A stretch of 64,000 bases of DNA from an uncultured Pseudoflavonifractor sp. GTDB taxonomy: Bacteria > Bacillota > Clostridia > Oscillospirales > Oscillospiraceae. The notes beneath the pieces are model-generated. The model saw nothing but the letters and a program-made list of their open reading frames with translations. It was not told where the DNA came from and ran no database searches. Both the position numbers and the translations under genes were made by a program. The stretch is taken from positions 1-64,000 of the forward strand of contig NZ_CALXGI010000003.1 of the NCBI RefSeq assembly GCF_944387805.1, written 5' to 3'. Positions 25,992 to 42,120 of the stretch are shown one piece after another. Position 1 is the first letter of the stretch. Every line of letters begins with the position of its first letter.

Positions 25992-27065
25992 GTGAGAAAG
26001 CCTGAAATGACCGGCCATGAGCGTATTGAGGCACTTTACAACAAGCAGCCTCAGGATCGCGTCCCCGTTGTACATAAGGGCTATGCCTTCTGCGCCAAGC
26101 ATGTGGGCATCCCCGTGGCCTCGGTCTACCGCGACCCCAAAGCCAGCTTTGAGTGCCAGAAAAAGACCTATGAGGACTTCGGCTTTGACGGCGGTCCCTT
26201 CTACACCTTCGTGGCCTACGGCGCCGGGGAGTTCGGCGGCAAAATCGAGTATAAGAAGGATGAGAACGCCTTTGGCCCCGAAGTCTCTGAGCGGCCCATC
26301 AAGGACTGGGAGGACTTTGATATCGACTCCCTCCAGCTGCCCGACGTAAAGACCGCCGGCTGCATTCCCCACGAGATGGAGTTCGCCAAGATGCAGGAGG
26401 CGGAGGGCAGCGAGATCGCCTTCATCTGCGGCACGCCCTTCACCCATGCCGCCAACCTGTTCGGCGTGCCCAGCTTCCTGGAGTGCGTGCTCATCGACCC
26501 CGACATGGCCCATGCCGCCCTGCGGAAGATGACCGACCACATTCTGCAGGTGGCCGAGTACTTCATCGGCACCTTCGGCCCCGGCCGGGTGCTGGCCCGC
26601 GCCGTGTCTCCCACTGAGTCCAACGCCCTCATCTCTCCCAAGATTCTGGAGGAGTTCTCCATGCCCTATGTAAAGGAGCTCAACTCCAAGGTGCTGGCGA
26701 TGGGTGCCAAGGCTGTGTATATGCACATGTGCGGCGACCACAACCTGAACCTGCCCTACTGGGCTGAGGTTCCCTTCCATCAGCCCGGCAAGCGGGGCAT
26801 GATCTCCATCGGTAAGGAGACCTCCCTGGAGGACGCGGCCAAGTACTTCCCCGAGTGTGCCATCTGCGGCAACCTGGACCCCGCCATCATCATGAACGGC
26901 ACCCCCGAAGAGGTCTACAAGACCAGCTGCGAGATTATCGAAAAGGGCAAGGCCCTGATGCCCGGCCGCTTCGAGTTCATGGCCGGCTGCGAGGTGGGTC
27001 CCGGCTCCCCGGAGGAGAACGTGGCCATGATGGTCAAAGCGGTCAACGACGTGGGCTGGTATTAA
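25992..27065 (+). CDS. uroporphyrinogen-decarboxylase/MtaA-like family protein
   Basis: A 357-residue UroD-fold barrel protein. It resembles the MtaA/CmuA methyltransferase branch rather than HemE. It has the zinc-type HMCGDH motif near residue 251 and a late GCEVGPGSPEEN near residue 337, the positions of the zinc ligands in corrinoid methyltransferases. No corrinoid-binding protein gene lies nearby, so its partner and reaction are unknown. It starts at GTG 25992 behind AAGGAGGG, 15 bases after the dehydrogenase, and precedes the PTS EIIA gene by 16 bases. A sugar-operon setting is unusual for this family. Confidence 0.8.
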   Translation: MRKPEMTGHERIEALYNKQPQDRVPVVHKGYAFCAKHVGIPVASVYRDPKASFECQKKTYEDFGFDGGPFYTFVAYGAGEFGGKIEYKKDENAFGPEVSERPIKDWEDFDIDSLQLPDVKTAGCIPHEMEFAKMQEAEGSEIAFICGTPFTHAANLFGVPSFLECVLIDPDMAHAALRKMTDHILQVAEYFIGTFGPGRVLARAVSPTESNALISPKILEEFSMPYVKELNSKVLAMGAKAVYMHMCGDHNLNLPYWAEVPFHQPGKRGMISIGKETSLEDAAKYFPECAICGNLDPAIIMNGTPEEVYKTSCEIIEKGKALMPGRFEFMAGCEVGPGSPEENVAMMVKAVNDVGWY

Positions 27066-27081: not shown

Positions 27082-27561
27082 ATGAGCGAGCTGAAAATGA
27101 GAACCAATGAGGACCTGATCCTCCTGCACCAGACCTTTGAAGATTCTGCTCAGGCTATCGATGCCCTGGCCAACCTGGCCAAGGCCCAGGGGCTGGTCAC
27201 CGACCTCTACATCGAGAAGATTCAGGAACGGGAGAAGGAGTTCCCCACCGGCCTGGAGATGCCCATTCCTCTAGCTATCCCTCATATTGCCGACGGCTGC
27301 AACGAGCCCTTTGTCTCCATTGCCACCATGGAGAAGCCTGTGATCTTCAAATCCATGGATCGCTCCGGAGATGACGTTTCGGTGCAGATCGTATTCCTCT
27401 TCGGCATCATTGACCCCAAGAGCCAGTTGGCAGTGCTGCGGAAGTTCGCCGCGGCGTTCTCTGACAAGGCTGCTGTCGAGAGCCTGCTGAAGGCAGAATC
27501 CAAGGCGGACCTGCTCAAAAAGCTGGACGGCATTCTGGAAGGCCTGCTGAACATTGGCTGA
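27082..27561 (+). CDS. PTS EIIA component (fructose/galactitol type)
   Basis: A 159-residue soluble phosphocarrier that passes phosphate from HPr to EIIB. The phospho-histidine is H68 in LAIPHIAD, in the standard PTS_EIIA type 2 surroundings (AIPLAIPH-like, then the FLFGI strand). Length is normal for a free-standing galactitol-type IIA. The ATG follows GAAGGAG. It is 74 bases upstream of EIIB and belongs to the same operon as the DeoC and dehydrogenase genes. Confidence 0.92.
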   Translation: MSELKMRTNEDLILLHQTFEDSAQAIDALANLAKAQGLVTDLYIEKIQEREKEFPTGLEMPIPLAIPHIADGCNEPFVSIATMEKPVIFKSMDRSGDDVSVQIVFLFGIIDPKSQLAVLRKFAAAFSDKAAVESLLKAESKADLLKKLDGILEGLLNIG

Positions 27562-27635
27562 CAGACGGGACTTCCGTTTCACAGCGCAAGAAAAAACAAA
27601 ACTGATCCCAATATGAAAAAAGGAGCGTGTATGGT

Positions 27636-27935
27636 ATGGCACGGACAGTTACAATCTGCGTTTGCTGCGGCGGCGGCATCTTCACCACTTCGGTGGTAAC
27701 GGAGGAGATCGAGAAACTGCTCAAGTCCAAGAAGATCTCCTACAAAATCGAGCCCCACAAGATCACAGAGATCCCCAACCTGGAGACCGACATCATCGTC
27801 GCCACCGGCAAGACGCAGGCGACCAACAAGAGCGGAGCTCCGGTCCTGATCGGCCTGCCCATGTTCACCGGCGTAGGCAAGGAGGAGTTCTCTCAGCTGC
27901 TGCTCAAGACCATTGCCGAGGTAGTGGGAGAGTAG
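27636..27935 (+). CDS. PTS EIIB component (galactitol type)
   Basis: A 99-residue cytosolic domain that phosphorylates the incoming sugar. The phospho-cysteine is C11 in ICVCCGGGIFTTS, which matches the loop of galactitol EIIB proteins, with an extra Cys just before it. The start is ATG 27636 behind AAAGGAG; the in-frame GTG at 27627 is too close to that site. EIIC follows after 72 bases. Confidence 0.9.
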   Translation: MARTVTICVCCGGGIFTTSVVTEEIEKLLKSKKISYKIEPHKITEIPNLETDIIVATGKTQATNKSGAPVLIGLPMFTGVGKEEFSQLLLKTIAEVVGE

Positions 27936-28007
27936 CCTGGAAGGTGCGCCCGCCGGAGGGGAGAGAGCGTTCCGGCGGGCGCCATTAAACCAAAAGGGAG
28001 GCAAAAT

Positions 28008-29471
28008 ATGGAATTCTTAGCGGTAATCGGACAAGCGGTAAAAAGCTTTATCGACATCTTCGGCGTTACCATCCTGGTCCCTATTGTAATCTTCATCCTT
28101 AGCCTTGCCCTGCGCGTGCCGGTGAAGAAAGCGTTTCGCGCCGCTATCTTCATGGCCATCGGCCTGACGGCCTTCAACCTGATTCTGAACACCCTCTGGG
28201 GACAGATGAATACCGTGATGGTGCTCATCTCCAACAACGTGGGCCGGACCTTCGACGTGGTGGATATCGGCTGGCCTGCCGCCGCTGCCATCGTGTACAG
28301 CAATGACCTGGGCATTTCCTACTTCATTGTGGGCCTGGTGTGGAACCTGATTCTGTTCTTCACCAAGGTCACGGATACCTTCCAGCCCACCGATATCTGG
28401 AACTACTACTACTTCGTCGTTTGGGGCATCATGGTCCAGTTCGTCACCGGCAGCTTCGTCATCGGTCTGCTGGCCTGCATGTTCATGAACCTGATTGTGC
28501 TCTTTATCGCCGACTTCCTGGCCCCCGCTCTCCAGGAGTACTACGGCTATGAGGGCCTGACCTGCACCTGCGTATGCGTTACCAACATTGCAATCCTGGC
28601 CGGTCTGATCCGCTGGCTCATCAATAAGCTGCACATTAAGGAAGTGCAGCTCAATCCTGAGAAGATTCAGGAGAAGCTGGGCTTCCTGGGCGAGCCCGCC
28701 ATGATCGGCATCATCATGGGCCTGATTATGGGCGTTGTAGCCTACTTCCCCGACCTGACCAACCCCTCCCTCATCGCCGAAACGCTGGGCCTGAAGATCT
28801 TCCCCTTCGCCCTGATGCTGGCCGCCATGCTGGTTATCTACCCCACCGTCTCCGGCATGTTCGTTAAGGGACTTATCCCTGTCAGCCAGAGCCTGAACGC
28901 CCGGGTGCGCAGCGGCAAGATTAACCGGAAGGCCTTCAACATCGGCATCGACCCCGCCGTCTACTTCGGCGAGACCGCTACCCTGACCACCGGCCTGCTG
29001 CTTATCCCCATTCTGATCATCACCGCCATTATCCTTCCCGGCAACCGTATCATCCCTGTGGCTGATATCCCTGCCATGCCCTTTATGGCCATCGGCGCCA
29101 TCGCCGTGTTTAAGGGCAACATTCTCAACGCCACCATCACCGGCACCATCTGGTACTCCATTGTCCACTACATCGCCACGGATACGGCTGCCCTCTTCAC
29201 CCAGATGGCAGAGAACGCCGGTCAGGCATTGCCCGAGGGTGCAACCTACATCACCTCCTGGTGTGTGTCCGCCATTCCTCCCTGCTATGTGGTCATGAAG
29301 GCCTTCTCTGCCCCCGGGGCCCTGAAGTTCATCCTGATGGCTGTCTGCGTGGTAGTTTACGTGCTGGCCCTGTGGCACTTCAAGACCCACCGCAAGGGCT
29401 GGTTCATGTTCTTCGGCGCCTCCGAGGAGTACACCGATCAGTACATGAACGTGGCGGCCCAGAACGCCTGA
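28008..29471 (+). CDS. PTS EIIC component, galactitol type
   Basis: A 487-residue sugar permease of the EIIC-Gat family, with about eleven or twelve hydrophobic segments. Marks of the family include WPAAAAIVYSNDLG near residue 90 and a central loop IKEVQLNPEKIQEKLG. It imports the substrate for phosphorylation by EIIB. The substrate cannot be read from sequence: galactitol, an arabinitol-like polyol or a deoxy-polyol are all possible. RBS GGGAGG. It is the last gene before the hairpin at 29600. Confidence 0.92.
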   Translation: MEFLAVIGQAVKSFIDIFGVTILVPIVIFILSLALRVPVKKAFRAAIFMAIGLTAFNLILNTLWGQMNTVMVLISNNVGRTFDVVDIGWPAAAAIVYSNDLGISYFIVGLVWNLILFFTKVTDTFQPTDIWNYYYFVVWGIMVQFVTGSFVIGLLACMFMNLIVLFIADFLAPALQEYYGYEGLTCTCVCVTNIAILAGLIRWLINKLHIKEVQLNPEKIQEKLGFLGEPAMIGIIMGLIMGVVAYFPDLTNPSLIAETLGLKIFPFALMLAAMLVIYPTVSGMFVKGLIPVSQSLNARVRSGKINRKAFNIGIDPAVYFGETATLTTGLLLIPILIITAIILPGNRIIPVADIPAMPFMAIGAIAVFKGNILNATITGTIWYSIVHYIATDTAALFTQMAENAGQALPEGATYITSWCVSAIPPCYVVMKAFSAPGALKFILMAVCVVVYVLALWHFKTHRKGWFMFFGASEEYTDQYMNVAAQNA

Positions 29472-29599
29472 GGCCGGCGCCTCATTATGTGTGAGCCATG
29501 CTCCAGAACCGGCGAAGCAGCCTGAACCCGGATGCTGGAGTTGGCAATGTGCCATTCATACACACCTCTGACCGGACCGGAGTTTAGGCTCCGGAAGGG

Positions 29600-29646
29600 C
29601 AACCTTCAGGGGACGAGGTCTCGGCCCCGTCCCCTGAAGGTTGTTT
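29600..29646 (+). terminator. hairpin ending the catabolic/PTS block
   Basis: CAACCTTCAGGGGACG pairs with CGTCCCCTGAAGGTTG across about 12 bases and is followed by TTT. The strong stem lies 128 bases after the EIIC stop. The remaining 29472-29724 spacer holds no gene. Confidence 0.85.
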
Positions 29647-29687
29647 CAGGGGGGAATTAAGGCTGAACGTCGGTAGAGGATACCGGG

Positions 29688-29698
29688 CAATATACATT
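29688..29698. promoter_or_regulatory. candidate GntR/UTRA operator, site 2
   Basis: CAATATACATT lies 27 bases before the GntR gene and shares ATATACA with sites 1 and 3. It would fit autoregulation. Sequence resemblance only. Confidence 0.25.
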
Positions 29699-29724
29699 AT
29701 CAAATAGTAAAGGGGAACTGTCAT

Positions 29725-30417
29725 ATGAACGCACTTGCTGTTAAGATGTACGACGCCATCCGCAAGGGGGAGTATAAGGAGAACGAGGTTATGCCCGACG
29801 TGGCCGCTCTGGTGGCGAAGTTCGGCGGCGACGAAAAGACTGTCCGGGAAGGCATTGGCGACCTGGTCTATGAGGGCGCCCTGGAGCGGGTCCCCGGCCA
29901 CGGCGACCAGGTCCGGGTCCGCAAGCCCTATCTGTGGGGGCTGGTGACCGGCAACCACAGCTTTACCGGCGAGGCCAAGAAGCGGGGCCAGAAGCCCGGC
30001 AACCGCATCCTCACCTTTGAGAAGCGTCCCGCATGGCCCCAGGTGGCCAAGCGCCTCCAGCTGGAGGAGGGGGAAGAGGTCAACGTGATGGAGCGTCTCC
30101 TCTTCGCTGATGACAAGGTGGTGGGCCTGGAGTTCTCCTACATGCCCTCCAAGTTCTATCCCGGCGTGGAGCGTGAGATGTTCGAGGGCGGCAAGTCCAC
30201 CTTCGCCGTCATGGAGAAGTTCGGCCACATCTCCGCCAAGGGCGTGGACGAGCTGGCCGTGGCCACCCTGGAGCCCCGTGAGGCCGAGCTGTTCGGCATG
30301 GATCCCGGTGTTCCCGTGCTCATCCGCTTCCGCGTCACCCTGAATCCCGAGGGCGTGCCCATCAAGGGCTCCCGCGCCATCTATCTCTTCAATCCCGGCT
30401 ACACGCTGGACATCTGA
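29725..30417 (+). CDS. GntR family regulator with UTRA ligand domain
   Basis: A 230-residue regulator. The N-terminal winged helix (about 5-68) reads AVKMYDAIRKGEY then VAALVAKFGGDEKTVREGIGDLVYEG. The C-terminal UTRA domain (about 85-228) includes VNVMERLLFADDKVVGLEFSY and the closing GSRAIYLFNPGYTLDI. UTRA domains bind sugar phosphates or similar small ligands, so this is the natural sensor for the product of the PTS. It has its own ribosome site (AAAGGGG) and stands between the PTS block and ptsI. Candidate ATATACA operators flank it. Confidence 0.9.
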   Translation: MNALAVKMYDAIRKGEYKENEVMPDVAALVAKFGGDEKTVREGIGDLVYEGALERVPGHGDQVRVRKPYLWGLVTGNHSFTGEAKKRGQKPGNRILTFEKRPAWPQVAKRLQLEEGEEVNVMERLLFADDKVVGLEFSYMPSKFYPGVEREMFEGGKSTFAVMEKFGHISAKGVDELAVATLEPREAELFGMDPGVPVLIRFRVTLNPEGVPIKGSRAIYLFNPGYTLDI

Positions 30418-30429
30418 GCAGCAATAGGG

Positions 30430-30441
30430 TAGTATATACAA
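30430..30441. promoter_or_regulatory. candidate GntR/UTRA operator, site 3
   Basis: TAGTATATACAA is close to the TTGTATATACAA operator of TreR, a GntR/UTRA regulator. It lies about 145 bases upstream of ptsI. Sequence resemblance only. Confidence 0.35.
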
Positions 30442-30584
30442 CGGCTCTTCGTAACGGTACGGAGTAATTTGTAACCCGCTGCTTCTGAAGGGCATCTGGT
30501 AAGTCCGCGCACAACCGGCTTGCCAGATGTCCCTTTCATAGAACCAGAGATCGGACAGTTGGCTGCGGCCCGGAGGTATTTAAC

Positions 30585-32300
30585 ATGAGACTGGTAGGGA
30601 AACCCGTATCCAAAGGTGTTGTGATCGGAGAGGTCCTGCTCTATGAGCCCTTCAAAGCCACTCCGGTTGTGACTTACATCGAGAAAAGCAATGTGGAACA
30701 GGCGGTCCGGGCCTATGAGGAGACCCGGGCGCGGGCCAAGGCCGAGCTGGATGAGCTGGAAGCCCGCATGCTGGAGCGAGATCCGGACAAGGCGGCAATC
30801 ATCTATGCCCACCGGGAGATCCTGCTGGATCCGGCCATGGATGAGGAGATCCGCAACCTGATCCAGAATGACCTGATGAGCCCTGATGCGGCCATCGACC
30901 AGACATACAGCACCTACATTATGGTGCTGGGCAAGAGCAAGAACGAGATGATGCGTGAGCGGGCCTCCGACCTGCGGGACGTGAAGACCCGTCTGCTGCG
31001 CTGCTGGGCGGGGGAGAAGGAGCAGAACCTCTCCTCCCTGGAGAAGCCGGTCATCGTGGTGGCCGACGACCTCTATCCCTCGGACACCGTGTCCCTGGAC
31101 CGGGAGAACGTGCTGGGTATCGTCACCCAGGTGGGCGGCGCTACCTCCCACACCGCCATCATCGCCCGCAGCTATGAGATCCCCGCCGTGCTGGGCATCC
31201 CCAACGCCATGACCAAGCTGACCGCCGGTGAGCAGGTGGTGCTGGACGCGGTGACGGGCGAGGTGATCACCGGCTCCGGCGAAGAGGAGCTGGCGGCCTA
31301 CCGGGCCAAGGCGGAGAAGGTAAAAGCCGAACTGCTGGAGACCAAGACCTATTTGGCCACCGAGCCGGTCACCACCGACGGCCGCCACATCAGCGTCCGT
31401 CTGAACGTGGCTGCCGCCAATGACCATGAGCTCTCCGGCGCCGAGTACGCCGACGGCTGCGGCCTGTTCCGCACCGAGTTCCTCTATCTCAACGGCGACC
31501 ATCTTCCCACTGAGGATGAGCAGTACGAGACCTATAAGAAGGTGCTGGAGGCCTTCGGCGACAAGCCGGTGATTCTCCGCACCATGGATATCGGCGGCGA
31601 CAAGCAGCTGGACCGTCTGGAGCTGCCCAAGGAGGACAATCCCTTCCTGGGCATCCGCGGCCTGCGGCTGTCCCTGGTCCGGCCGGAGCTCTTCCGGGCC
31701 CAGATCCGGGCGGCTCTGCGCGCCTCCGTCCACGGCAACCTGCGCATCATGATGCCCATGGTGGGCGCCCTGGATGAAATCCGCAAGGCCAAGGCCTTCA
31801 TCGCCGAGCAGGGCGCCGCCCTGGACGCCGAGGGTATCCCCTGGAACCACGAGGTGCCGGTAGGCATTATGATTGAGGTGCCCTCCGTGGCCCTCATCGC
31901 CGACCTGGTGGCCGATGAGGTGGACTTTGTCAGCGTGGGCACCAACGACCTGACCCAGTACCTCTGCGCTGCCGACCGGATGAACCCGGCGGTAAAGCCC
32001 TACTATCAGGACTACCATCCCGGCGTGTTCCGCATGCTGGGCCACATCGCCAAGACCTTCGGCGCGGCCGGCAAGCCGGTGAGCGTCTGCGGCGAGCTGG
32101 GCGGCGATACGCTGGCCATCCCCGTACTGGTGGGTCTGGGCATTGACAAGCTCTCCATGGGTCTTGCCTCCATGGCGGCGGCCAAGCGGGTCATCCGCGG
32201 GCTGAACATGGATGAGGCCAGAGCCCTGGCGGAAGAGGTCAAGAACATGAAGACGGAGACGGAGATCCGCGCCCGTCTGGAGGCCTTCGCGGCCCGATAA
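30585..32300 (+). CDS. ptsI: PTS enzyme I (phosphoenolpyruvate-protein phosphotransferase)
   Basis: A 571-residue enzyme I that takes phosphate from PEP and hands it to HPr. The phospho-histidine is H189 in GGATSHTAII, the same number as in E. coli. The PEP-binding part has GCGLFRTEFLY, MDIGGDKQLDR, VGIMIEVPS and SVGTNDLTQY, and the catalytic Cys is in SVCGELGGD. The protein is complete. The gene sits with its own HPr gene inside a BMC/PTS locus, so it may be a second, dedicated copy; whether the genome has another ptsHI is not visible here. Confidence 0.96.
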   Translation: MRLVGKPVSKGVVIGEVLLYEPFKATPVVTYIEKSNVEQAVRAYEETRARAKAELDELEARMLERDPDKAAIIYAHREILLDPAMDEEIRNLIQNDLMSPDAAIDQTYSTYIMVLGKSKNEMMRERASDLRDVKTRLLRCWAGEKEQNLSSLEKPVIVVADDLYPSDTVSLDRENVLGIVTQVGGATSHTAIIARSYEIPAVLGIPNAMTKLTAGEQVVLDAVTGEVITGSGEEELAAYRAKAEKVKAELLETKTYLATEPVTTDGRHISVRLNVAAANDHELSGAEYADGCGLFRTEFLYLNGDHLPTEDEQYETYKKVLEAFGDKPVILRTMDIGGDKQLDRLELPKEDNPFLGIRGLRLSLVRPELFRAQIRAALRASVHGNLRIMMPMVGALDEIRKAKAFIAEQGAALDAEGIPWNHEVPVGIMIEVPSVALIADLVADEVDFVSVGTNDLTQYLCAADRMNPAVKPYYQDYHPGVFRMLGHIAKTFGAAGKPVSVCGELGGDTLAIPVLVGLGIDKLSMGLASMAAAKRVIRGLNMDEARALAEEVKNMKTETEIRARLEAFAAR

Positions 32301-32317
32301 GAAAGGGGACAGTTGCT

Positions 32318-32584
32318 ATGTATTCCAAGCAGATTAAGATCCAGAACAAGACCGGTCTTCACGCCCGCCCTGCCTCCGAGTTTGTCAGCCAGGCGGGTAA
32401 GTTCAAGTCCAAGATCGAGCTCCAGCGCGTAGGCGAGGAGGACAAGTACAACGCCAAGTCCATCATCATGCTGCTCTCTCTGGGCCTGGCCCAGGGCGAA
32501 GAGGCCGTGCTCTACGCCGACGGCGAGGATGAGAAGGAGGCCGTCGAGACTCTGGCCGATCTCATCGCCAGCTTCAAGGAGTAA
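32318..32584 (+). CDS. ptsH: HPr phosphocarrier protein
   Basis: An 88-residue HPr. H15 in TGLHARPAS is the PEP-dependent phospho-site. The regulatory serine region NAKSIIMLLSLG is present, but Ser is residue 48 instead of 46 because of a short insertion around GEEDKYN. If HPr kinase recognises it, it could also take part in CcpA signalling. It starts 17 bases after ptsI and is co-transcribed. Confidence 0.95.
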   Translation: MYSKQIKIQNKTGLHARPASEFVSQAGKFKSKIELQRVGEEDKYNAKSIIMLLSLGLAQGEEAVLYADGEDEKEAVETLADLIASFKE

Positions 32585-32683: not shown

Positions 32684-32709
32684 AGCTGCTGAGAAAGCGA
32701 GGGTTGCCT

Positions 32710-33345
32710 ATGACCCGGGAAGAGATTAAGCGGCAGGTCACCAAGGACACCCTGCTCTCCGCCCGGAAGAACACGGGCCGGGGATTTGTCCCCGTGGGGA
32801 TCTCCAACCGGCATGTCCACCTGACCCAGGCGGCAGTGGAGGCCCTCTTTGGTCCCGGCCACCAGCTCACCCCCATGAAGGCCCTGTCCCAGCCGGGACA
32901 GTTCGCCTGCGAGGAGAAGGTGATGGTGGAGGGCCCCAAGGGAAAGCTGAGCGGTCTCCGGGTCCTGGGCCCTGTCCGGAAGGACACCCAGGTGGAGCTG
33001 TCGGTGACCGACGCCTTCGCGGCGGGCATCAAGCCGGTGGTGCGCATGTCAGGAGACATCGCGGGCACACCGGGCTGCCGCCTGACGGGCCCCTGCGGGA
33101 GCCTGGAGCTGAAGGAGGGCGTCATCGTGGCCGCAAGGCACCTCCACATCTCCCCCGAACAGGCCGCGGTCTACGGCCTCAAGAGCGGCGACCAGGTCCG
33201 GCTGAGAAGCGAGGGACCCAGGGCCGTGGTGTTTGAGCATGTGGCGGTCCGGTCCGGGACAGGACACGACCTGGAGGTCCACATCGATTTTGACGAGGCC
33301 AACTGCGCCCAGATGAGAAACGGCGATCTGCTGGAGATCATCTGA
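32710..33345 (+). CDS. pduL: BMC phosphotransacylase PduL
   Basis: A 211-residue acyl-CoA:phosphate acyltransferase of the PduL type, which in BMCs makes acyl phosphate and recycles CoA. Both halves of the family are seen: VGISNRHVHLTQ near residue 28 and ARHLHISPEQAAVYGL near 140, which carry the zinc-binding histidines. The N-terminus TREEIKRQVTKDTLL forms an amphipathic helix, a typical encapsulation peptide. ATG 32710 follows GAGGG; the TTG at 32704 is less likely. It opens the shell and cargo operon. Confidence 0.92.
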   Translation: MTREEIKRQVTKDTLLSARKNTGRGFVPVGISNRHVHLTQAAVEALFGPGHQLTPMKALSQPGQFACEEKVMVEGPKGKLSGLRVLGPVRKDTQVELSVTDAFAAGIKPVVRMSGDIAGTPGCRLTGPCGSLELKEGVIVAARHLHISPEQAAVYGLKSGDQVRLRSEGPRAVVFEHVAVRSGTGHDLEVHIDFDEANCAQMRNGDLLEII

Positions 33346-33377
33346 GCGAGGCGGCTGTGCCGAAAGGGGGCGATGGA

Positions 33378-34061
33378 TTGGACAGTCTGGAACGGCAGGC
33401 ACTGATTGCGCGGATTACGGCGGAGGTGTGCAGAGCGGTGGACGCCGCTCAGGCGGCGAAGCCCGAGGCGCCGGACACACTGGCCATCATATCCGCGCCG
33501 CTGGCCCTGCCGGACAGAATTTTCAAGCAGGTGCGGGAGACCTTCGGCGGCAATGTACGCTATCTCCTCTTTGGAGACCATCTCCACTACGAGCAGGTCC
33601 CTGCGGTGCAGGGGACGCCCGAGGGAGAGCAGGACTACATTGAGGAGGCCGCCGGTGTGGAGACCGTGCTGCTCCTCTCGCCCCGCACCTCCACCCTCAG
33701 CCGTCTGGCAAAAGGGGAGGATGAGGGGCTGCTGGAGGACCTGGTGCTCCGCACCCTCCTGTGGGGGAAGGACGTACACATCTGGCTGGATTTCCAGCCT
33801 ATGCGGTTCAAACGAAACACATTTTTCGAAAAGGTGCTGGACGCCATCGAGGCGCTGGAGGATATGGGCGTCACCGTCACAGCCTTTGACTGGACGGCGG
33901 AGCTGGGAAGCAAACCCCTCCTGACGCTGGTCACCGAGCGGGACATGATGGACGCCGGACAGGCGGGCGCGCAGGAGCTGCGCTGTGCCTCCAACGCCAT
34001 TATCACCCCCTCGGCCCTGGACAAGGCCGCGGAGCTGAATATCCGAATCGTCCGTGTTTAG
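33378..34061 (+). CDS. BMC-locus protein of unknown function with a targeting-like helix
   Basis: A 227-residue protein I cannot assign. The N-terminus MDSLERQALIARITAEVCRA would form an amphipathic helix like BMC encapsulation peptides. It then continues in a Rossmann-like alternating pattern (LAIISAPLAL, VRYLLFGDHL, VETVLLLSPRTS, KDVHIWLDFQPM). The C-terminus has CASNAIITPSALDKA. A flavoprotein-like fold is possible but unproven. TTG 33378 is preferred because AAAGGGGG lies seven bases upstream; GTG 33357 is the alternative. It sits between pduL and the first BMC-P gene, so a role inside the shell is likely. Confidence 0.6.
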   Translation: MDSLERQALIARITAEVCRAVDAAQAAKPEAPDTLAIISAPLALPDRIFKQVRETFGGNVRYLLFGDHLHYEQVPAVQGTPEGEQDYIEEAAGVETVLLLSPRTSTLSRLAKGEDEGLLEDLVLRTLLWGKDVHIWLDFQPMRFKRNTFFEKVLDAIEALEDMGVTVTAFDWTAELGSKPLLTLVTERDMMDAGQAGAQELRCASNAIITPSALDKAAELNIRIVRV

Positions 34062-34078
34062 CAGATGGGAGGATTGAC

Positions 34079-34375
34079 ATGCAGATCGCGAGAGTCAAGG
34101 GAACAGTGGTCAGCACCAACAAAGCGGAAAAGCTGATGGGACTGAAGCTCCTGGTGGTCAAGCCCATTGACCTGGAGACCATGGAGGAGAAGGGAAGCCC
34201 CATCGTGGTGGTGGACGCAGTGGGCGCCGGTGAAGGCGAAGTGGTCATGCTGGTGGGAGGCAGCTCCTCCCGTCAGACCGCAGCCACGGAGAACAAGCCG
34301 GTGGATCAGTCCATTGTGGCCATCATCGACCACATCGATATCGACAACAAGCGGGTATTCCAGAAGTTTCAGTAA
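34079..34375 (+). CDS. BMC-P shell vertex protein (EutN/CcmL family), copy 1
   Basis: A 98-residue pentamer-forming shell protein that caps BMC vertices. The family start MQIARVKGTVVSTNKAEKL, the middle PIVVVDAVGAGEGEVVMLVGGSSS and the closing SIVAIIDHIDI match EutN/CcmL. RBS GGGAGGA. It lies 17 bases after the unknown cargo-like gene and 52 bases before the aldehyde dehydrogenase gene. Confidence 0.93.
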   Translation: MQIARVKGTVVSTNKAEKLMGLKLLVVKPIDLETMEEKGSPIVVVDAVGAGEGEVVMLVGGSSSRQTAATENKPVDQSIVAIIDHIDIDNKRVFQKFQ

Positions 34376-34427
34376 GCAGCAGTTCAGTCCCAACTAAAAC
34401 TGCCGACAGCAGAGAGGTAGTGAGAAC

Positions 34428-35831
34428 GTGCTCAACAGAAGCGAGATCGAGCGAATTGCCCGGGAGACTGCGGCGGAGCTGGCAGGGGGCGGCGGATGTA
34501 CGCCTGCTTCCGGCTGCTGGATGTGCGATACTGCCGAGGAGGCCATCGCCAACGCGAAAGCGTCCCAGCAGAGGCTCCATGCCATGGGTCTGGAAGAGCG
34601 GGGACGGTTTATCGCCGCCATGCGCGCCGCGGCCCTGAAAAACGCTGAGTACCTGGCTGAGCTGGCCCACAGCGAGACCAAGTACGGCAGCGTGGCCCAC
34701 AAGATCCTGAAAAACCAGCTGGCCGCCAACAAGACCCCCGGCATTGAGGACCTGGTGACCCAGGCCTTCAGCGGGGACGACGGCCTGACCATCGTGGAGG
34801 GCGCCCCCTGGGGGGTCATCGGCTCCATCACCCCCTCCACCAACCCCACGGCGACCATCATCAACAACTCCATCAGCATGATCGCCGCCGGCAATGCCGT
34901 GGTGTTCAACCCCCACCCGGCAGCCAAGCACGCCTCCCAGGAGGCTATGCGTATCCTCAATGAGGCCATTGTGGAGGCAGGCGGCCCGCCCGCCCTCATC
35001 GCTACCGTGAAGGTGCCCACCCTGCAGACCGGCGAGGCCATCATGGCCTCCAAGGACATCCGGCTGCTCTCCATCACCGGCGGCGAGGCGGTTGTGGCCG
35101 CGGCCATGAAGTACCCCAAGCGGGTGGTGGCCGCCGGACCTGGCAACCCGCCCGTCATTGTGGATGACACCGTGGACATCCCCTATGCGGCCAAGACCAT
35201 TGTGGACGGCGCCAGCTTTGACAACAACGTCCTCTGCGTGGCGGAAAAAGAGGTGTTCGCCTTTGAGAACATCGCCGACGCGCTGATGAACGAGATGGTC
35301 CAGCGCTGCGGCGCCTGGCGGATCTCCGGCGCCGACATCGACAAGGTGGTGCGCACCGTGCTGCTGGAGAAGGACGGCAAGCACGTCATCAACCGGAAGT
35401 TCGTGGGCCGGGACGCCACCTACATCCTTCAGGAGAGCGGCGTGTCCTACCAGGGCAATCCCCGGCTGGTCATCGCCGAGGTGGACAAGTACCATCCCTT
35501 TGTCATGGTGGAGATGCTGATGCCCGTCCTGGGCATTGTCCGGGTGAAGGACATCGACGAGGCTGTGGCCGAGGCGGTGCGGGCTGAGCGGGGCTGCCAC
35601 CATTCCGCCATGATTCACTCCACCAACATCAAGCACATGACCCAGGCGGCAGCCGCCCTGGACACCACTATTTTCGTCAAGAACGCCCCGTCCTACTCCG
35701 GCCTGGGCTTCGGCGGCCAGGGCTTCGCCACCCTGACCATCGCTACCCCCACCGGTGAAGGACTCACCAGCGCCCGCACCTTTACCCGTGCCCGCCGCTG
35801 CGTGCTCAAGGGCGATCTCCGGATTATCTGA
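34428..35831 (+). CDS. CoA-acylating aldehyde dehydrogenase (PduP/EutE-like)
   Basis: A 467-residue enzyme converting acetaldehyde or a similar aldehyde plus CoA and NAD+ into acyl-CoA. The catalytic cysteine is C270 in FDNNVLCVAEKEV. Other family marks are GSITPSTNP, GNAVVFNPHPAAK and RVVAAGPGNPP. The N-terminal helix SEIERIARETAAELAG followed by a Gly/Cys-rich linker is an encapsulation peptide. GTG start behind AGAGAGG. It should be the core enzyme that uses the acetaldehyde released by the DeoC aldolases. Confidence 0.95.
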   Translation: MLNRSEIERIARETAAELAGGGGCTPASGCWMCDTAEEAIANAKASQQRLHAMGLEERGRFIAAMRAAALKNAEYLAELAHSETKYGSVAHKILKNQLAANKTPGIEDLVTQAFSGDDGLTIVEGAPWGVIGSITPSTNPTATIINNSISMIAAGNAVVFNPHPAAKHASQEAMRILNEAIVEAGGPPALIATVKVPTLQTGEAIMASKDIRLLSITGGEAVVAAAMKYPKRVVAAGPGNPPVIVDDTVDIPYAAKTIVDGASFDNNVLCVAEKEVFAFENIADALMNEMVQRCGAWRISGADIDKVVRTVLLEKDGKHVINRKFVGRDATYILQESGVSYQGNPRLVIAEVDKYHPFVMVEMLMPVLGIVRVKDIDEAVAEAVRAERGCHHSAMIHSTNIKHMTQAAAALDTTIFVKNAPSYSGLGFGGQGFATLTIATPTGEGLTSARTFTRARRCVLKGDLRII

Positions 35832-35835
35832 GCCT

Positions 35836-37143
35836 ATGGATAAGTTAGCAATGATTAGAGACGCAGGCGTGGTAGGCGCCGGCGGCGCCGGATTTCCCAC
35901 CCATGTGAAGCTGGACTGCCAGGCGGAGTTCGTCATCGCCAACGGCGCGGAGTGCGAGCCGCTGCTGCGGGTGGACCAGCAGGTCATGGAGTTTGAAGCC
36001 CGGGATGTGGTAGAGGGACTGCGGATTGAGATGGAGCTGGTGGGCGCCAAGGAGGGGATTATCTTCCTCAAGGAGCACTATACCGGCGCCATCCGGGCCC
36101 TGCGGGACGTGCTCAGGCACGAGAAGAAGATCCGGCTCCACATTGTGGACAGCTTCTATCCCGCCGGCGACGAGCAGCAGATCATCTATGAGGTCACCCA
36201 CCGGGTGGTTCCGCCGGGCGGACTGCCCAAGGACGTGGGCTGTGTGGTCAACAATGTGAGCACCCTGGTCAACGTGGCCAAGGCGGTCCGGGGTGAGCCG
36301 GTGACCGACAAGTACGTCACCGTGGGCGGGGCGGTCAAGGCCCCCTGCACCATCCGGGTGCCCATCGGCACCCCCCTCTCTGCGCTGGTGGAGTACGCCG
36401 GCGGCCCTCTGGAGGAGGACAGCGTGCTCATCGTGGGCGGACCCTGCATGGGCGCCGTAACAGAGAACTGGGAGCAGAGCGTTACCAAGACCACCGGCGG
36501 CGTACTGGTGATTCCCCGCAATCATCCTCTTCTGGAGCGGAAAAACCCGGAAATCAATCTGAAGGTGATGCAGTCGGTGTGCTGCCAGTGCACCATGTGC
36601 ACCCAGATGTGCCCCCGGCACGCCCTGGGGCTGGGGACCAGTCCCCACAAGGCCATGCGGGCGGTGGCCTGCGGCGCCGATCTGGTGGGCGACGTGGCCG
36701 GCATCCTCTCCTGCTGCGACTGCGGACTTTGTACTTACTACGCCTGCAACTTCGGCCTGAAGCCCTCTCACATCATGAAGATGCTCAAGGGTAGCCTGAT
36801 GCAGAAGGGCCTGCGGGCCAACCGGGACCGGATGGGCGAGCCGGACCGGTATATTGCAGATAAACGCCTTCCCACCGGGCGGCTTATTGCCCGGCTGGGC
36901 ATCGAGGAATACGATGTGCCCGCCCCCATGGAGACAGGGCTGCTGCCCTGTTCTCTGGTGCGGATTCCTACTAAGATGCATACAGGAGCTCCGGGGCGGC
37001 CGGTGGTCAAGCCGGGCGATCGGGTCATCCGGGGCCAGCTGATTCTGGATCTGCCGGAAAAGGGCTTGGGCGCAAAAATCCACGCCAGTATTGACGGTAC
37101 CGTGACCGAGGTCACTCAGGCCTATGTGGAGGTGAGAGCATGA
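35836..37143 (+). CDS. PduS-like RnfC-type iron-sulfur flavoprotein
   Basis: A 435-residue electron-transfer protein of the PduS/RnfC family, which oxidises NADH. An N-terminal GVVGAGGAGFPTH loop, a central SLBB-like part (YVTVGGAVKAPCTIRV) and two 4Fe-4S sites are visible: C-x2-C-x2-C-x3-CP in CCQCTMCTQMCP and a second set in CCDCGLCTYYAC. In the Pdu system it supports cobalamin reduction and contacts PduT. No B12 enzyme is seen in this locus, so cofactor or electron recycling is more likely. The gene ends in ATGA overlap with the BMC-T gene. Confidence 0.9.
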   Translation: MDKLAMIRDAGVVGAGGAGFPTHVKLDCQAEFVIANGAECEPLLRVDQQVMEFEARDVVEGLRIEMELVGAKEGIIFLKEHYTGAIRALRDVLRHEKKIRLHIVDSFYPAGDEQQIIYEVTHRVVPPGGLPKDVGCVVNNVSTLVNVAKAVRGEPVTDKYVTVGGAVKAPCTIRVPIGTPLSALVEYAGGPLEEDSVLIVGGPCMGAVTENWEQSVTKTTGGVLVIPRNHPLLERKNPEINLKVMQSVCCQCTMCTQMCPRHALGLGTSPHKAMRAVACGADLVGDVAGILSCCDCGLCTYYACNFGLKPSHIMKMLKGSLMQKGLRANRDRMGEPDRYIADKRLPTGRLIARLGIEEYDVPAPMETGLLPCSLVRIPTKMHTGAPGRPVVKPGDRVIRGQLILDLPEKGLGAKIHASIDGTVTEVTQAYVEVRA

Positions 37144-37688
37144 GGACAGCGTTAGGAGCCATTGAAGTACAGAGCATCCCCAAGGGCATTGAGGCGGGGG
37201 ACGCCATGCTCAAGGCGGCCCATGTGGAGCTCATCTCCGCCGGTACGGTCTGCGCCGGAAAGTACGTGGTGGTGGTGGCCGGCGAGGTGGACGCAGTCAA
37301 CGCCAGCGTTCAGGCCGGAACCGCCACGGCGGGCGGCAAGCTCATCGACAGCCTGCTCATCCCCCGCATCCATCCCCAGGTTCCCAAGGCCATCAACGCC
37401 TGCACCGATGTGGGCAGCGTCCAGGCCGTGGGTACCATGGAGCTCTTCTCTGTCTGCGCTGCCATCCAGGCGGCCGACACAGCTGTCAAGGCGGCCACCG
37501 TGGACCTGATTGAGGTCCGGCTGGGCCGGGGCCTGGGCGGAAAATCCTTTGTGGTACTCACCGGCGACGTGGCTTCGGTCCGCTCTGCCGTGGAGGCCGG
37601 GCGTACTGCCGCCCGGGAGAAGGGCCTGGTGTCCGACTGCACCGTGGTTCCCTCTCCCCACCCCGATCTGGTCAAAGCGCTGCTGTAA
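37140..37688 (+). CDS. BMC-T shell protein, PduT-like
   Basis: A 182-residue protein with two tandem BMC domains (about 3-85 and 95-180) forming a pseudohexameric trimer. It is PduT-like: the start LGAIEVQSIPKGIEAGDAML and a cysteine at position 38 in GTVCAGKY, the residue that holds a 4Fe-4S cluster in the PduT pore. A redox pore next to the PduS-like protein encoded by the overlapping gene is therefore plausible. Start at the ATGA overlap. Confidence 0.93.
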   Translation: MRTALGAIEVQSIPKGIEAGDAMLKAAHVELISAGTVCAGKYVVVVAGEVDAVNASVQAGTATAGGKLIDSLLIPRIHPQVPKAINACTDVGSVQAVGTMELFSVCAAIQAADTAVKAATVDLIEVRLGRGLGGKSFVVLTGDVASVRSAVEAGRTAAREKGLVSDCTVVPSPHPDLVKALL

Positions 37689-37736
37689 TACGGATTGCCC
37701 ATAAAAACCAAGGACACTGACAGGAGGCACATAATT

Positions 37737-38048
37737 ATGAAGCTTGCGTTAGGTATGGTAGAGACCCGGGGCCTGGTTGGCTCCATCGAGGCGGCCGACG
37801 CCATGGTGAAGGCTGCCGACGTGCATCTCATTGGCAAGGAGCGCATCGGGTCCGGCCTGGTGACCGTCATGGTCCGCGGCGATGTGGGCGCGGTGAAGGC
37901 CGCCGTCGAGGCGGGCGCTGCCGCTGCCAAGCGGGTGGGCGACCTGTACGGCACCCATGTCATTCCCAGCCCTCACGACGATGTGGAGACGATTCTTCCC
38001 GGCTATGAGAAGCCCGCCGCCAAGAAGGCCCCCGCGGCCAAGGCGTAA
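37737..38048 (+). CDS. BMC-H shell protein, PduA-like, copy 1
   Basis: A 103-residue hexameric shell protein. [10 protein letters not shown], the pore loop GSG in [11 protein letters not shown] and [11 protein letters not shown] are typical of PduA/EutM. It has a Lys/Ala-rich tail ([12 protein letters not shown]) that the second BMC-H lacks. ATG 37737 follows CAGGAGG. Nine differences separate it from copy 2 over about 85 aligned residues. Confidence 0.95.
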
Positions 38049-38053
38049 GACCG

Positions 38054-38320
38054 ATGTATACCGGCGAGGTGATCGGCTCGGTGGTGGCCACTGTGAAGGA
38101 GGAGCACCTGGAGGGAATTCCCCTGCTGGTGGTTCAGGTCATCGAGAACGGAAAGCGAACCAAAAAGGTGATCGCGGCGGACGCCACCCGCCAGGCGGGC
38201 CACGGGGACTTTGTCTACCTCATCGGCTCCAAGGAGGCCGCCCGGATGTTCCGCAAAAAGCTCACCCCGGCGGACGCGGCCATTGTGGGCTTTATTGACT
38301 CCTATCGGGAAGAGCTGTAG
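38054..38320 (+). CDS. BMC-P shell vertex protein (EutN/CcmL family), copy 2
   Basis: An 88-residue vertex protein. It starts MYTGEVIGSVVATVKEEHL, with GIPLLVVQVIENG and the closing AAIVGFIDSY of the family. It begins five bases after the BMC-H stop, with the upstream gene's end probably supplying the ribosome site by coupling. It is more basic than copies 1 and 3. Confidence 0.92.
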   Translation: MYTGEVIGSVVATVKEEHLEGIPLLVVQVIENGKRTKKVIAADATRQAGHGDFVYLIGSKEAARMFRKKLTPADAAIVGFIDSYREEL

Positions 38321-38404
38321 CACAATTCCATTCCCCGGCGGCAGGGCCGCCGGCACAAAAAGACTACCATCGAAAAATTAATGATAAAATGGAGGAATTA
38401 AGTT

Positions 38405-38680
38405 ATGGAGAGACAGGCTTTGGGTATGGTTGAGACCAGAGGTTTGATCGGCGCGATTGAGGCTGCGGATTCCATGGTGAAGGCCGCCAACGTCCACCTG
38501 GTGGGCAAGGAGCAGATTGGGTCCGGCTTGGTGACCGTTATGGTCCGCGGCGACGTGGGCGCCGTGAAGGCCGCCGTCGAGGCCGGCGCCGCCGCTGCCA
38601 AGCGGGTGGGCGACCTGTACGGCGTGCATGTCATCCCCTCTCCCCACGGCGATGTGGAGGCCATTCTGCCCCAGGCGTAA
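38405..38680 (+). CDS. BMC-H shell protein, PduA-like, copy 2
   Basis: A 91-residue hexameric shell protein nearly matching PduA in length and sequence, with pore loop GSG in [11 protein letters not shown]. It is a recent-looking paralogue of copy 1, without the Lys/Ala tail. RBS GGAGG. Two versions allow mixed hexamers or different facets. Confidence 0.95.
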
Positions 38681-38796
38681 CCAATCTGCGGGTCGTCTCC
38701 CTGCGTGCCGTCCGGACGCGCGGGGAGACGCCTGCCCTGTTGGGGCGGCATTCCGTCCCTGTGCCGTGAATACTCCAGGAAAGGGAGGTGCCTGCC

Positions 38797-39111
38797 ATGA
38801 GATTGGCGCGGGTCGTGGGGAATGTGGTCTCCACCATCAAGGACGAGGGCTATAAGGGCCAGAAGCTGATGATTGTGGAGTATCTCAACGAGCATGGCCA
38901 GCCTGAGGGCGCGCGGCAGATTGCCTTTGACTGCGCCGACGCCGGTGTGGGTGACATTGTCATTGTGAATACCGACGGCGGTGCGGCGAACATGTTCCTT
39001 GGCAAGCAGTGCATCGCCGACATTACCATCTGCGGCGTGGTGGACTACTGCACTTTCAATGGGGAGAATATCATGGGACACACAGTGCCGGCCCCTTCAA
39101 GAAAGGACTAA
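38797..39111 (+). CDS. BMC-P shell vertex protein (EutN/CcmL family), copy 3
   Basis: A 104-residue vertex protein. It starts MRLARVVGNVVSTIKDEGY, with QKLMIVEYLNEHG and CGVVDYCTFNGE. It has several cysteines, unlike copies 1 and 2. RBS AGGGAGGTG; ATG 38797 is preferred over the TTG/GTG-type starts upstream. It ends three bases before the DeoC copy 2 gene. Confidence 0.9.
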   Translation: MRLARVVGNVVSTIKDEGYKGQKLMIVEYLNEHGQPEGARQIAFDCADAGVGDIVIVNTDGGAANMFLGKQCIADITICGVVDYCTFNGENIMGHTVPAPSRKD

Positions 39112-39114
39112 GCC

Positions 39115-39897
39115 ATGGTTGACATCAAGAAAATTTCGGAAGAGGTCCTGCGGGAGCTGGAGGCCCAGGAAAAGGGAGCCGCCCGCCCCTGCCCCATCCA
39201 GGGCCAGGGCGCCCGCATGCGGGATGTGACCTGTGCCGATGTGCCCCGCAGACTGGAGCACTCCCTTCTTGTGGCGGACATGACCCGGGAAAAGCTGCTG
39301 GCCGAATGCCAGGTGGCCAAGCAGTGGGGAGTGGGCGCGGTGTGCGTGGCTCCTTACTATGTGGAAGAGGCGGCCCAGGCCCTTGCGGGAACCAACGTGG
39401 CGGTGTGTGCCGCCATCGGCTTTCCCAGCGCATTTATGAGCACCGAGGCCAAGGTGGCAGACGTGCGGGCCTGCACCAATGCCGGCGCGTCTGAGCTGGA
39501 TATTGCCGTAGACATTGCGGCGGTAAAGTCCGGGAACTGGAACAAGGTGACCCGGGACTTTGGCGCAGCAGTGGACGCAGCCCGTGGCAGAGCGCTGGTA
39601 AAGGCTGTTTTTGAGCACGGCTCTTACAATGAATCTGAGAAAGAACAGGTCCTTCTTCTGGCCAAGCGCTGCGGCGTGGATTTTGTGAAAATCCAGAATA
39701 TGACCAGCGGTGTGGGCGCCCGTGTGGAAGAGATCTTTCTGGTGCGGCAGATCCTGGGCCGCAATGTAAAGATTAAGATCGACGGCGGCGTCAAGACGCT
39801 GGACAAGGCGCTGGAGCTCTTTACCGCCGGCGCTGACCGGATTGGCCTCACTGCCACTGCAAAAGTGGCCGCTGAGGCGCTGGAGCGGGCCCGGTGA
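39115..39897 (+). CDS. divergent DeoC-type aldolase, copy 2, with encapsulation helix
   Basis: A 260-residue DeoC-fold protein. The N-terminus VDIKKISEEVLRELEAQ is an amphipathic helix followed by a loose linker, typical of BMC cargo. The barrel keeps D129 in SELDIAVD, Schiff-base K192 in DFVKIQNM and K221 in KIKIDGG. The opening motif is LEHSLLVA instead of DHTLLKP and the STGY after the Lys is lost, so the substrate or activity may differ from true deoxyribose-5-phosphate aldolase. It is close behind BMC-P copy 3 and 54 bases before DeoC copy 3. Confidence 0.78.
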   Translation: MVDIKKISEEVLRELEAQEKGAARPCPIQGQGARMRDVTCADVPRRLEHSLLVADMTREKLLAECQVAKQWGVGAVCVAPYYVEEAAQALAGTNVAVCAAIGFPSAFMSTEAKVADVRACTNAGASELDIAVDIAAVKSGNWNKVTRDFGAAVDAARGRALVKAVFEHGSYNESEKEQVLLLAKRCGVDFVKIQNMTSGVGARVEEIFLVRQILGRNVKIKIDGGVKTLDKALELFTAGADRIGLTATAKVAAEALERAR

Positions 39898-39951
39898 AGC
39901 ACTTGACGCTCACCGCGGCGGAGGCCCCGCCGCACCAGGAAAGGAATGAAT

Positions 39952-40812
39952 ATGGCATTGGAAATGAATGAACTCAACGAGATTATCCGAAAAGTGACAG
40001 AAGAGGTGTGCAGCCGGTACGGCGTCTGCGATACGCCCGCCGCCTCTGCGGCCGGCGGCTCCATGGACCCCGCCTCTCTGGCAAAGTATATTGACCACAC
40101 CCTGCTCAAGCCCGAGGCCTCTGTGGAGGATATCAAGAAGGTCTGTGACGAGGCCAAGAAGTATCACTTCGCCAGCGTCTGTGTCAACCCCTCCTATATC
40201 CGCTATGTGGCCGAGCAGCTCTCCGGCAGCGATGTGACCCCCTGCTGTGTCATCGGCTTCCCCTTCGGCACCCAGACACCCGAGGCCAAGCGCTTTGAGG
40301 CGCAGGACGCCGTGACCAACGGCGCCCGCGAGGTAGATATGGTGATCAACGTGGGCGCCATCAAGTCCAGAGATTGGCATCTGGTCAAGCGGGACATCGA
40401 GGGCGTGGTGGAGGCCACCCGCGGCCGGGCTGCGGTGAAGGTTATCCTGGAGACCTGCCTGCTCACCGACGAGGAGAAGGTCAAGGCCTGCACCGTCAGC
40501 AAGCTGGCCGGCGCAGCCTTTGTCAAGACCTCCACCGGCTACTCCAAGGGCGGCGCCACCGTGGAGGACGTGCAGCTCATGCGGGCCACCGTTGGCCCTG
40601 AGATGGGCGTGAAGGCCTCCGGCGGCATCCGTACCTATGAGGACGCTGTGGCTATGATCAAGGCTGGCGCCAATCGCCTGGGCGCCAGCGCCGGCATTAA
40701 GATTATTGCCGGCCCCTCCGGCTCCTCCGGCGACCACCAGTGTATCAACTGCGGCACCTGCAAGACACAGTGTCCCACCGGCGCCTGCACGATTGTCAAA
40801 AACAGCTACTAA
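39952..40812 (+). CDS. deoC: deoxyribose-phosphate aldolase with encapsulation helix and 4Fe-4S tail
   Basis: A 286-residue DeoC. The N-terminal helix [17 protein letters not shown] is an encapsulation peptide with a Gly/Ala linker. The canonical barrel follows with IDHTLLKP, D129 in EVDMVIN, Schiff-base K192 in FVKTSTGY and K221 in VKASGGIRT. It splits 2-deoxyribose 5-phosphate into acetaldehyde and glyceraldehyde 3-phosphate. After the barrel, residues 264-279 add C-x2-C-x2-C-x3-CP plus a further Cys, a ferredoxin-like 4Fe-4S motif I do not know in this family. ATG 39952 fits AGGAAAGG better than 39946. Confidence 0.9.
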
Positions 40813-40911: not shown

Positions 40912-42120
40912 GTGGACGAGAGCCTGCTTAAGCGCGTAAAAAAATACGCCAACCATTTTGAAGAAATCAGCGGTGTGGATACCTGTGTGCTCAATCTCCG
41001 GGAGCGGAAATTTTACGAGGACCCACCCTCCTTCTGCCAGGACAGCTGTCCCTGCCGGGGCGGTGACTGCGACTGCCTTCAGGTTCATCTGCGCAACTGT
41101 CTGGAGGCGGAACGCTGGGATGGGCGGTATACCTACTACTGCCCCCTCAATCTAATCTTTGTCGCCGCATATTGTACCACCCGTATGGGGATCCCCACCG
41201 GCGTGGTAGCCGGGCCTTTCCTGCTGGATGAATTTGACCGGGATTCCTTCCCGGGCCTGGATGAAAAGGCACTCTCCGCCCTGGTTTGTATTCCGGTGAT
41301 GAGCACCAGCAAGGGGTATCACTTCGGCGAGACACTGGGCGCGCTGCTCACCTGCTGCGGCACCAGAGACAGGGGTTTTTCACCAACGGAAAACCGCTGG
41401 GAGCTTATCAACAAGATGTTCAAGTTCGCCACCAACGGGGCGGACGGCACCACGACGGGGTACTCCATTGAGATGGAGCGCCGTCTGGTCCATCTAATCT
41501 CAGACGGCGATAACGAGGGAGCGCGCCAGCAGATCAACCAGGTTCTCAGCTATATCTCCTTCTCAGCAAACGGAAATTTGGACGCGGCAAGGGCCAGGTG
41601 CATGGAGCTGCTGGTGGTGATGAGCCGGGCCGCCATCGACGCGGGCGCGGAGGTGGATACCATCTTTTTGCTCAACGAGACCTATTTCCATGAGCTGGCT
41701 GCCTGCTCCGCGGTGGCGGATATGGGCGTCTGGCTGTCCACAGCGGCCAGCGGCTACGCATCCTACGTACAGGATGCCGCCGCCACAAAGCACTCCTATG
41801 CCGTGTCCAAGGCCATTAACTATATCCGGCAGAACTATGCCTCCAAAATTACCCTGGAAGGCACCGCCAAGATGGTGTATCTGAGCCGTTCCTACTTCTC
41901 TAAGCTCTTTGCCGAGGAGACGGGCACCACCTTCTCCAACTATGTCATCCAGGTGCGGATTGAGAAGAGCAAGCAGCTTCTGTTGGACAGCAGCGTGAAA
42001 CTGGCTGATGTGGCCTATCTGGTGGGCTTTGTGGATCAGAGCTACTTTACCAAGTGCTTTCGGAAAATTGTAGGGATATCACCCGGAAAATATCGAAACT
42101 GTCAGGGAAAATTGGAGTAA
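40912..42120 (+). CDS. AraC-type regulator with PocR ligand domain
   Basis: A 402-residue activator-like protein. The N-terminal PocR domain (about 8-165) has the Cys-rich stretch SFCQDSCPCRGGDCDCLQ and CPLNLIFVAAY, seen in PocR-type sensors of BMC substrates. A middle helical part follows. The C-terminal AraC pair of helix-turn-helices (about 295-398) includes LSRSYFSKLFAEETGTTF and VGFVDQSYFTKCFRK. Its place right after the shell operon suggests it switches the BMC on. The GTG at 40912 has AAAGGAGAAGG upstream. The ligand is unknown. Confidence 0.9.
   Translation: MDESLLKRVKKYANHFEEISGVDTCVLNLRERKFYEDPPSFCQDSCPCRGGDCDCLQVHLRNCLEAERWDGRYTYYCPLNLIFVAAYCTTRMGIPTGVVAGPFLLDEFDRDSFPGLDEKALSALVCIPVMSTSKGYHFGETLGALLTCCGTRDRGFSPTENRWELINKMFKFATNGADGTTTGYSIEMERRLVHLISDGDNEGARQQINQVLSYISFSANGNLDAARARCMELLVVMSRAAIDAGAEVDTIFLLNETYFHELAACSAVADMGVWLSTAASGYASYVQDAAATKHSYAVSKAINYIRQNYASKITLEGTAKMVYLSRSYFSKLFAEETGTTFSNYVIQVRIEKSKQLLLDSSVKLADVAYLVGFVDQSYFTKCFRKIVGISPGKYRNCQGKLE

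Follow-up and report, generated by a model that had tools for sequence, protein, structure and literature searches.

Gene organization

The window, meaning the whole 64,000-nucleotide stretch of DNA analysed here, lies on a contig of a 2.99 Mb genome (G000) and contains a BMC operon spanning positions 32704-40812 of the plus strand. Its first gene encodes a PduL phosphotransacylase (32704-33345; PF06130, E 7e-74), followed by a BMC-associated protein with a weak match to TIGR02536 (33357-34061; 24.5 bits, below the cut-off), a BMC-P shell protein of the EutN/CcmL type (34079-34375; PF03319) and a CoA-acylating aldehyde dehydrogenase (ALDH) of the EutE/PduP type (34428-35831; PRK15398, 622.8 bits, above the cut-off). 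The next two genes specify a PduS-type flavo-iron-sulfur oxidoreductase (35836-37143) and a PduT-type BMC-T shell protein (37140-37688). Two BMC-H proteins (37737-38048, PF00936, E 1e-29; 38405-38680, PF00936) alternate with two further BMC-P proteins (38054-38320 and 38788-39111; both PF03319), and the operon closes with a second DeoC-like protein of altered active-site context (39115-39897; TIGR00126, 155.8 bits; VKIQN and IKIDGG) and, as its last gene, a tailed DeoC aldolase (DeoC3; 39946-40812; TIGR00126, 297.8 bits). The latter is followed, on the same strand, by a gene for an AraC regulator with a PocR sensory domain (40912-42120; PF10114, PF12833). A second genome bearing the same family label (G015) also has a related locus.

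Upstream of the operon, on the plus strand, is a gene set for Gat-type PTS components IIA/IIB/IIC, a GntR regulator, enzyme I and HPr (27082-32584; profiles PF00359, PF03611, PF07702 and PF02896, with PF02302 below the cut-off), which likely supplies the substrate of the BMC pathway. The enzyme I and HPr genes (30585-32584) are situated between the Gat-type PTS and the compartment genes, and the presence of general PTS components within such a BMC locus is unusual. Beyond this set, again on the plus strand, are genes for a hydroxyacid dehydrogenase, another DeoC, an MDR dehydrogenase and a member of the MtaA/CmuA family (URO-D fold; 25992-27065), the last of these in an upstream sugar operon.

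The locus resembles the sugar-phosphate-utilising (SPU) loci (Axen 2014; Sutter 2021) in its DeoC-type (pfam01791) aldolase, acylating ALDH, PduL and BMC-P shell. Unlike those loci it lacks RpiB (pfam02502), which is common to all seven SPU subtypes, the only RpiB of this genome being found on contig C70; it is further distinguished by the upstream PTS genes, the presence of three DeoC-like genes and the Fe-S-motif tail of DeoC3.

PduS and PduT

The PduS-like protein is 435 amino acids in length and displays, in order, the Pfam domains Complex1_51K (residues 7-148; PF01512), SLBB (160-206; PF10531), Fer4_17 (249-308; PF13534) and RnfC_N (374-431; PF13375), matching the four-domain make-up described for PduS (PMC6325248). 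Two tetracysteine motifs, C249-x2-C252-x2-C255-x3-C259 and C293-x2-C296-x2-C299-x4-C304, have the same spacing as those of Citrobacter freundii PduS (PMC2982820) and agree with the two 4Fe-4S sites that the original prediction had assigned to this protein. All eight ligand cysteines are invariant among the 165 homologues compared; the other cysteines vary, C40 being the only conserved exception, and the glycine-rich GAGGAGFP is kept. On the basis of these domains and motifs the protein is predicted to be of the NADH:flavin/2x[4Fe-4S] type.

The pduT gene overlaps the end of pduS by 4 bp (ATGA). Its product contains two BMC domains (PF00936) and carries Cys38 within CAGKY, in agreement with the published motif C-[PSA]-G-[KRS]-[YF]. 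An AlphaFold monomer model built from 25 sequences (pLDDT 93.6) places Cys38 between strands 30-37 and 41-48, in the presumptive pore loop; Foldseek aligned the model with 3nwg, 3pac ([4Fe-4S] PduT) and 3n79 (PduT C38S) at TM scores of 0.84-0.94. The overlapping PduT-like BMC-T with a cysteine at position 38 was thus correctly anticipated, and the interval given for the two genes (35836-37688) fits them exactly. Since the protein scores 131.2 bits against NCBIfam TIGR02526 (PduT), below the cut-off of 250.3 bits, we refer to it as PduT-like and not as a curated equivalog.

Loss of Cys38 from orthologues had been named beforehand as an observation that would count against an electron path through the shell. 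The residue is present in 75/75 PduS-adjacent BMC-Ts from loci that were picked by their BMC-P family, and not by PduT or Cys38. At the corresponding position the BMC-T paralogues lying away from PduS in the same loci, which align at low identity, mostly show A, V or a gap. A further count of 81/81 is left out as evidence of conservation because the scan pattern itself contained Cys38. Three ethanolamine loci without PduS (L188, L229 and L249) encode divergent PduT-like BMC-Ts that retain the pore cysteine.

The two proteins evolve together: the distance correlation across loci is 0.90 for PduS-PduT, compared with 0.58 for PduS-PduL and 0.62 for PduT-PduL. PduT was found in 80 genome loci, the majority of them ethanolamine loci. 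The PduT proteins of aldolase loci, which are the nearest relatives of the window protein, form their own supported clade (98/82) made up of DeoC loci and of loci with MtnA and class II aldolase genes. In domain order of PduS, both cluster motifs, the Cys38 motif, gene adjacency and BMC-T fold, the window resembles the PDU loci of Citrobacter and Salmonella, and we regard its PduS and PduT as a genuine, canonical pair. The GRM and EUT2 systems likewise use the pair without a diol dehydratase; they differ in signature enzyme and in that the aldolase-locus PduT falls into its own clade.

The MtnA-type BMC loci (L042-L047, L049, L050, L057, L070, L072 and L080; n=12) all encode S-methyl-5-thioribose-1-P isomerase (MtnA) and a class II aldolase (12/12). 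PduL, PduS and PduT are present, ALDH occurs in 10/12, a RuBisCO-like protein in most and MtnK where checked. Possibly these loci specify a methylthioribose or 5-deoxyribose compartment, of which we found no description in the literature searched.

Cobalamin genes

The PDU loci differ from the window in having a B12-dependent diol dehydratase and PduO; neither a B12 enzyme nor PduO is encoded in the BMC locus, and PduS in B12-free SPU loci of Atribacteria was noted in 2014 (PMC4207490). The original prediction that no B12 enzyme is visible therefore holds for the BMC operon. It does not extend to the neighborhood, which is not B12-free because a near-complete cobalamin-biosynthesis cluster of the anaerobic type adjoins the locus directly downstream (44079 to at least 63337), and the MtaA/CmuA-family gene lies at 25992, neither of which the prediction mentions. 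Together with the PocR-domain regulator at 40912, these genes are what might be expected if PduS were a corrin reductase, as in Salmonella, and the locus were tied to B12 metabolism. We consider this improbable. The sole PF01923 adenosyltransferase gene of the genome is located in the EUT locus on contig C45, and in the fetched flanks cobalamin genes accompany none of the 92 non-EUT PduS loci other than the window, as against 4 of the 50 EUT PduS loci. A B12 link as the general role of PduS was rejected on the 0/92 count.

DeoC aldolases

DeoC3 retains D131, K194 and K223, the equivalents of the catalytic Asp102, Lys167 and Lys201 of E. coli DERA, and like that enzyme (Tyr259) it ends in tyrosine. 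It differs from DERA in possessing an N-terminal encapsulation-peptide-like helix and approximately 22-24 extra residues, including the motif CxxCGxCxxxCP, inserted before the terminal Tyr288 (the protein ends in KNSY). An operon ending in an aldolase with a 4Fe-4S-type tail, as had been proposed, is thus what is found. The ferredoxin-type motif CxxCxxCxxxCP is kept in 4/4 tailed DeoC proteins (window, L041, L259 and L243); the DeoC3 tail scores 20.8 bits with Pfam Fer4_9, which is below the cut-off, and a single-sequence AlphaFold model of the tailed DeoC was poor (pLDDT 40.9).

The terminal tyrosine is found in all four tailed proteins and in the untailed compartment relatives from L297 and L300, but in only 14 of the 42 untailed DeoC proteins with complete C-termini. 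(The L243 protein escaped the motif used in this tally, yet ends in DNY.) The corresponding tyrosine of E. coli DERA enters the active site and takes part in catalysis (PMC8403123), and the tail thus lengthens the catalytic arm.

Three Fe-S proteins in one operon had been taken as a single electron path, in which the DeoC tail would give electrons to, or take them from, PduS and PduT. Tail, PduS and PduT do co-occur in the window, L041 and L259. They also occur apart. A tailed DeoC is encoded in L243, a locus that lacks PduS/PduT and whose genome (G212) gave no hit to PduT when the class was searched at E<=1e-30; L300, conversely, has PduS/PduT but a DeoC that carries no tail. Tail and pair can thus be separated, and an aldol reaction entails no net oxidation or reduction, so that a common chain is highly improbable and this part of the original prediction is given up.

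The tail may instead act on the aldolase itself, structurally or by redox, through its putative Fe-S motif, and it more likely tunes or gates the enzyme than relays electrons. In one specific version, which we consider unlikely, the DERA of this BMC would be gated by redox state or oxygen: its mobile C-terminal arm would contain a [4Fe-4S] cluster that positions or withdraws the catalytic tyrosine, and aldehyde production in the lumen would be switched by a redox state to which PduS/PduT are sensitive as well. The tail is the new element at this locus and its most interesting part. The literature searched yielded no description of a class I aldolase with an Fe-S site in its catalytic arm. Should the motif indeed bind a cluster, aldehyde production would be coupled to redox state in an unusual way.

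Relatives of the second DeoC-like protein are present in L048 (6524-7234), L051 (11824-12555) and L056 (9124-9858). Both catalytic lysines are missing in L048 and L051 and one is missing in L056, and the protein appears to be a pseudo-aldolase retained in the compartment operon.

NADH recycling and possible electron export

Sealed metabolosomes have to rebalance NADH, and the window operon includes an NADH-making ALDH. Because no alcohol dehydrogenase is encoded inside this operon, an electron exit via PduS-PduT is plausible here. The idea itself is prior art, to which the pair described here adds one aldolase-compartment case: it has been proposed for PDU compartments (PMC2982820) and hypothesized for GRM (PMC6325248) and EUT compartments, the Listeria EUT compartment having been linked to extracellular electron transfer (PMC8547011). 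PduS of C. freundii oxidizes NADH and binds PduT, and the potentials measured there (PduS -150 mV, PduT +99 mV) render transfer exergonic in the export direction (PMC2982820).

The reading that we prefer, at about even chances, is that of an aldolase metabolosome in which PduS and PduT carry part of the NADH electrons out through the PduT pore, with the DeoC tail serving separately. A sugar or sugar-alcohol phosphate imported by the PTS would give rise to the DeoC substrate, from which encapsulated DeoC would release acetaldehyde; the ALDH would convert this to acetyl-CoA with formation of NADH, and PduL would yield acetyl-phosphate. Anchored by PduT to the inside of the shell, PduS would oxidize part of the NADH via FMN and two [4Fe-4S] clusters and pass electrons to a [4Fe-4S] cluster held by three Cys38 residues in the PduT pore, which would deliver them to a cytosolic acceptor. 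The acceptor would have to be of fairly high potential; a cluster at +99 mV could not feed ferredoxin or NAD, which counts against the export mechanism.

The distribution of alcohol dehydrogenases bears on whether the pair is instead auxiliary, acting for example as a redox sensor, as an electron route into the lumen or for overflow only. The comparison covered 84 loci selected by BMC-P that also encode ALDH and PduL; 51/69 of those with PduS and 8/15 of those without it contain a dehydrogenase of the Fe or MDR type (p=0.13). As most PduS-positive loci also carry a dehydrogenase, the pair is no general substitute for alcohol dehydrogenase, and with no mutual exclusion among the 84 loci a class-wide replacement was rejected. 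In L051 and L259, two DeoC loci closely related to that of the window, an Fe-type alcohol dehydrogenase gene adjoins that for PduL, and the G000 genome has 12 PF00465 matches, that is, about a dozen Fe-ADH-type genes outside the operon that could serve. These observations favor an auxiliary role and likewise weigh against export. None of those genes, however, is in the window BMC operon, and Fe-ADH or MDR dehydrogenase genes are found in 0/12 of the MtnA-type sister loci (fetched flanks), where PduS/PduT occur in 12/12. We hold an auxiliary role to be a possible but distinctly less probable explanation than electron export. Since PduS/PduT are kept without a nearby alcohol dehydrogenase in the window and, more clearly, in the MtnA-type loci, both should be well suited to testing whether electrons flow through the shell pore.

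Counted by itself, Fe-ADH is less frequent in GRE loci that have PduS (1/20) than in those that lack it (3/5; p=0.016, uncorrected), but in the former an MDR dehydrogenase replaces it.

The G000 genome also contains a separate ethanolamine BMC locus (L040; contig C45, 3465-13694), which has Fe-ADH and EutT without PduS/PduT, the reverse of what the window locus shows.
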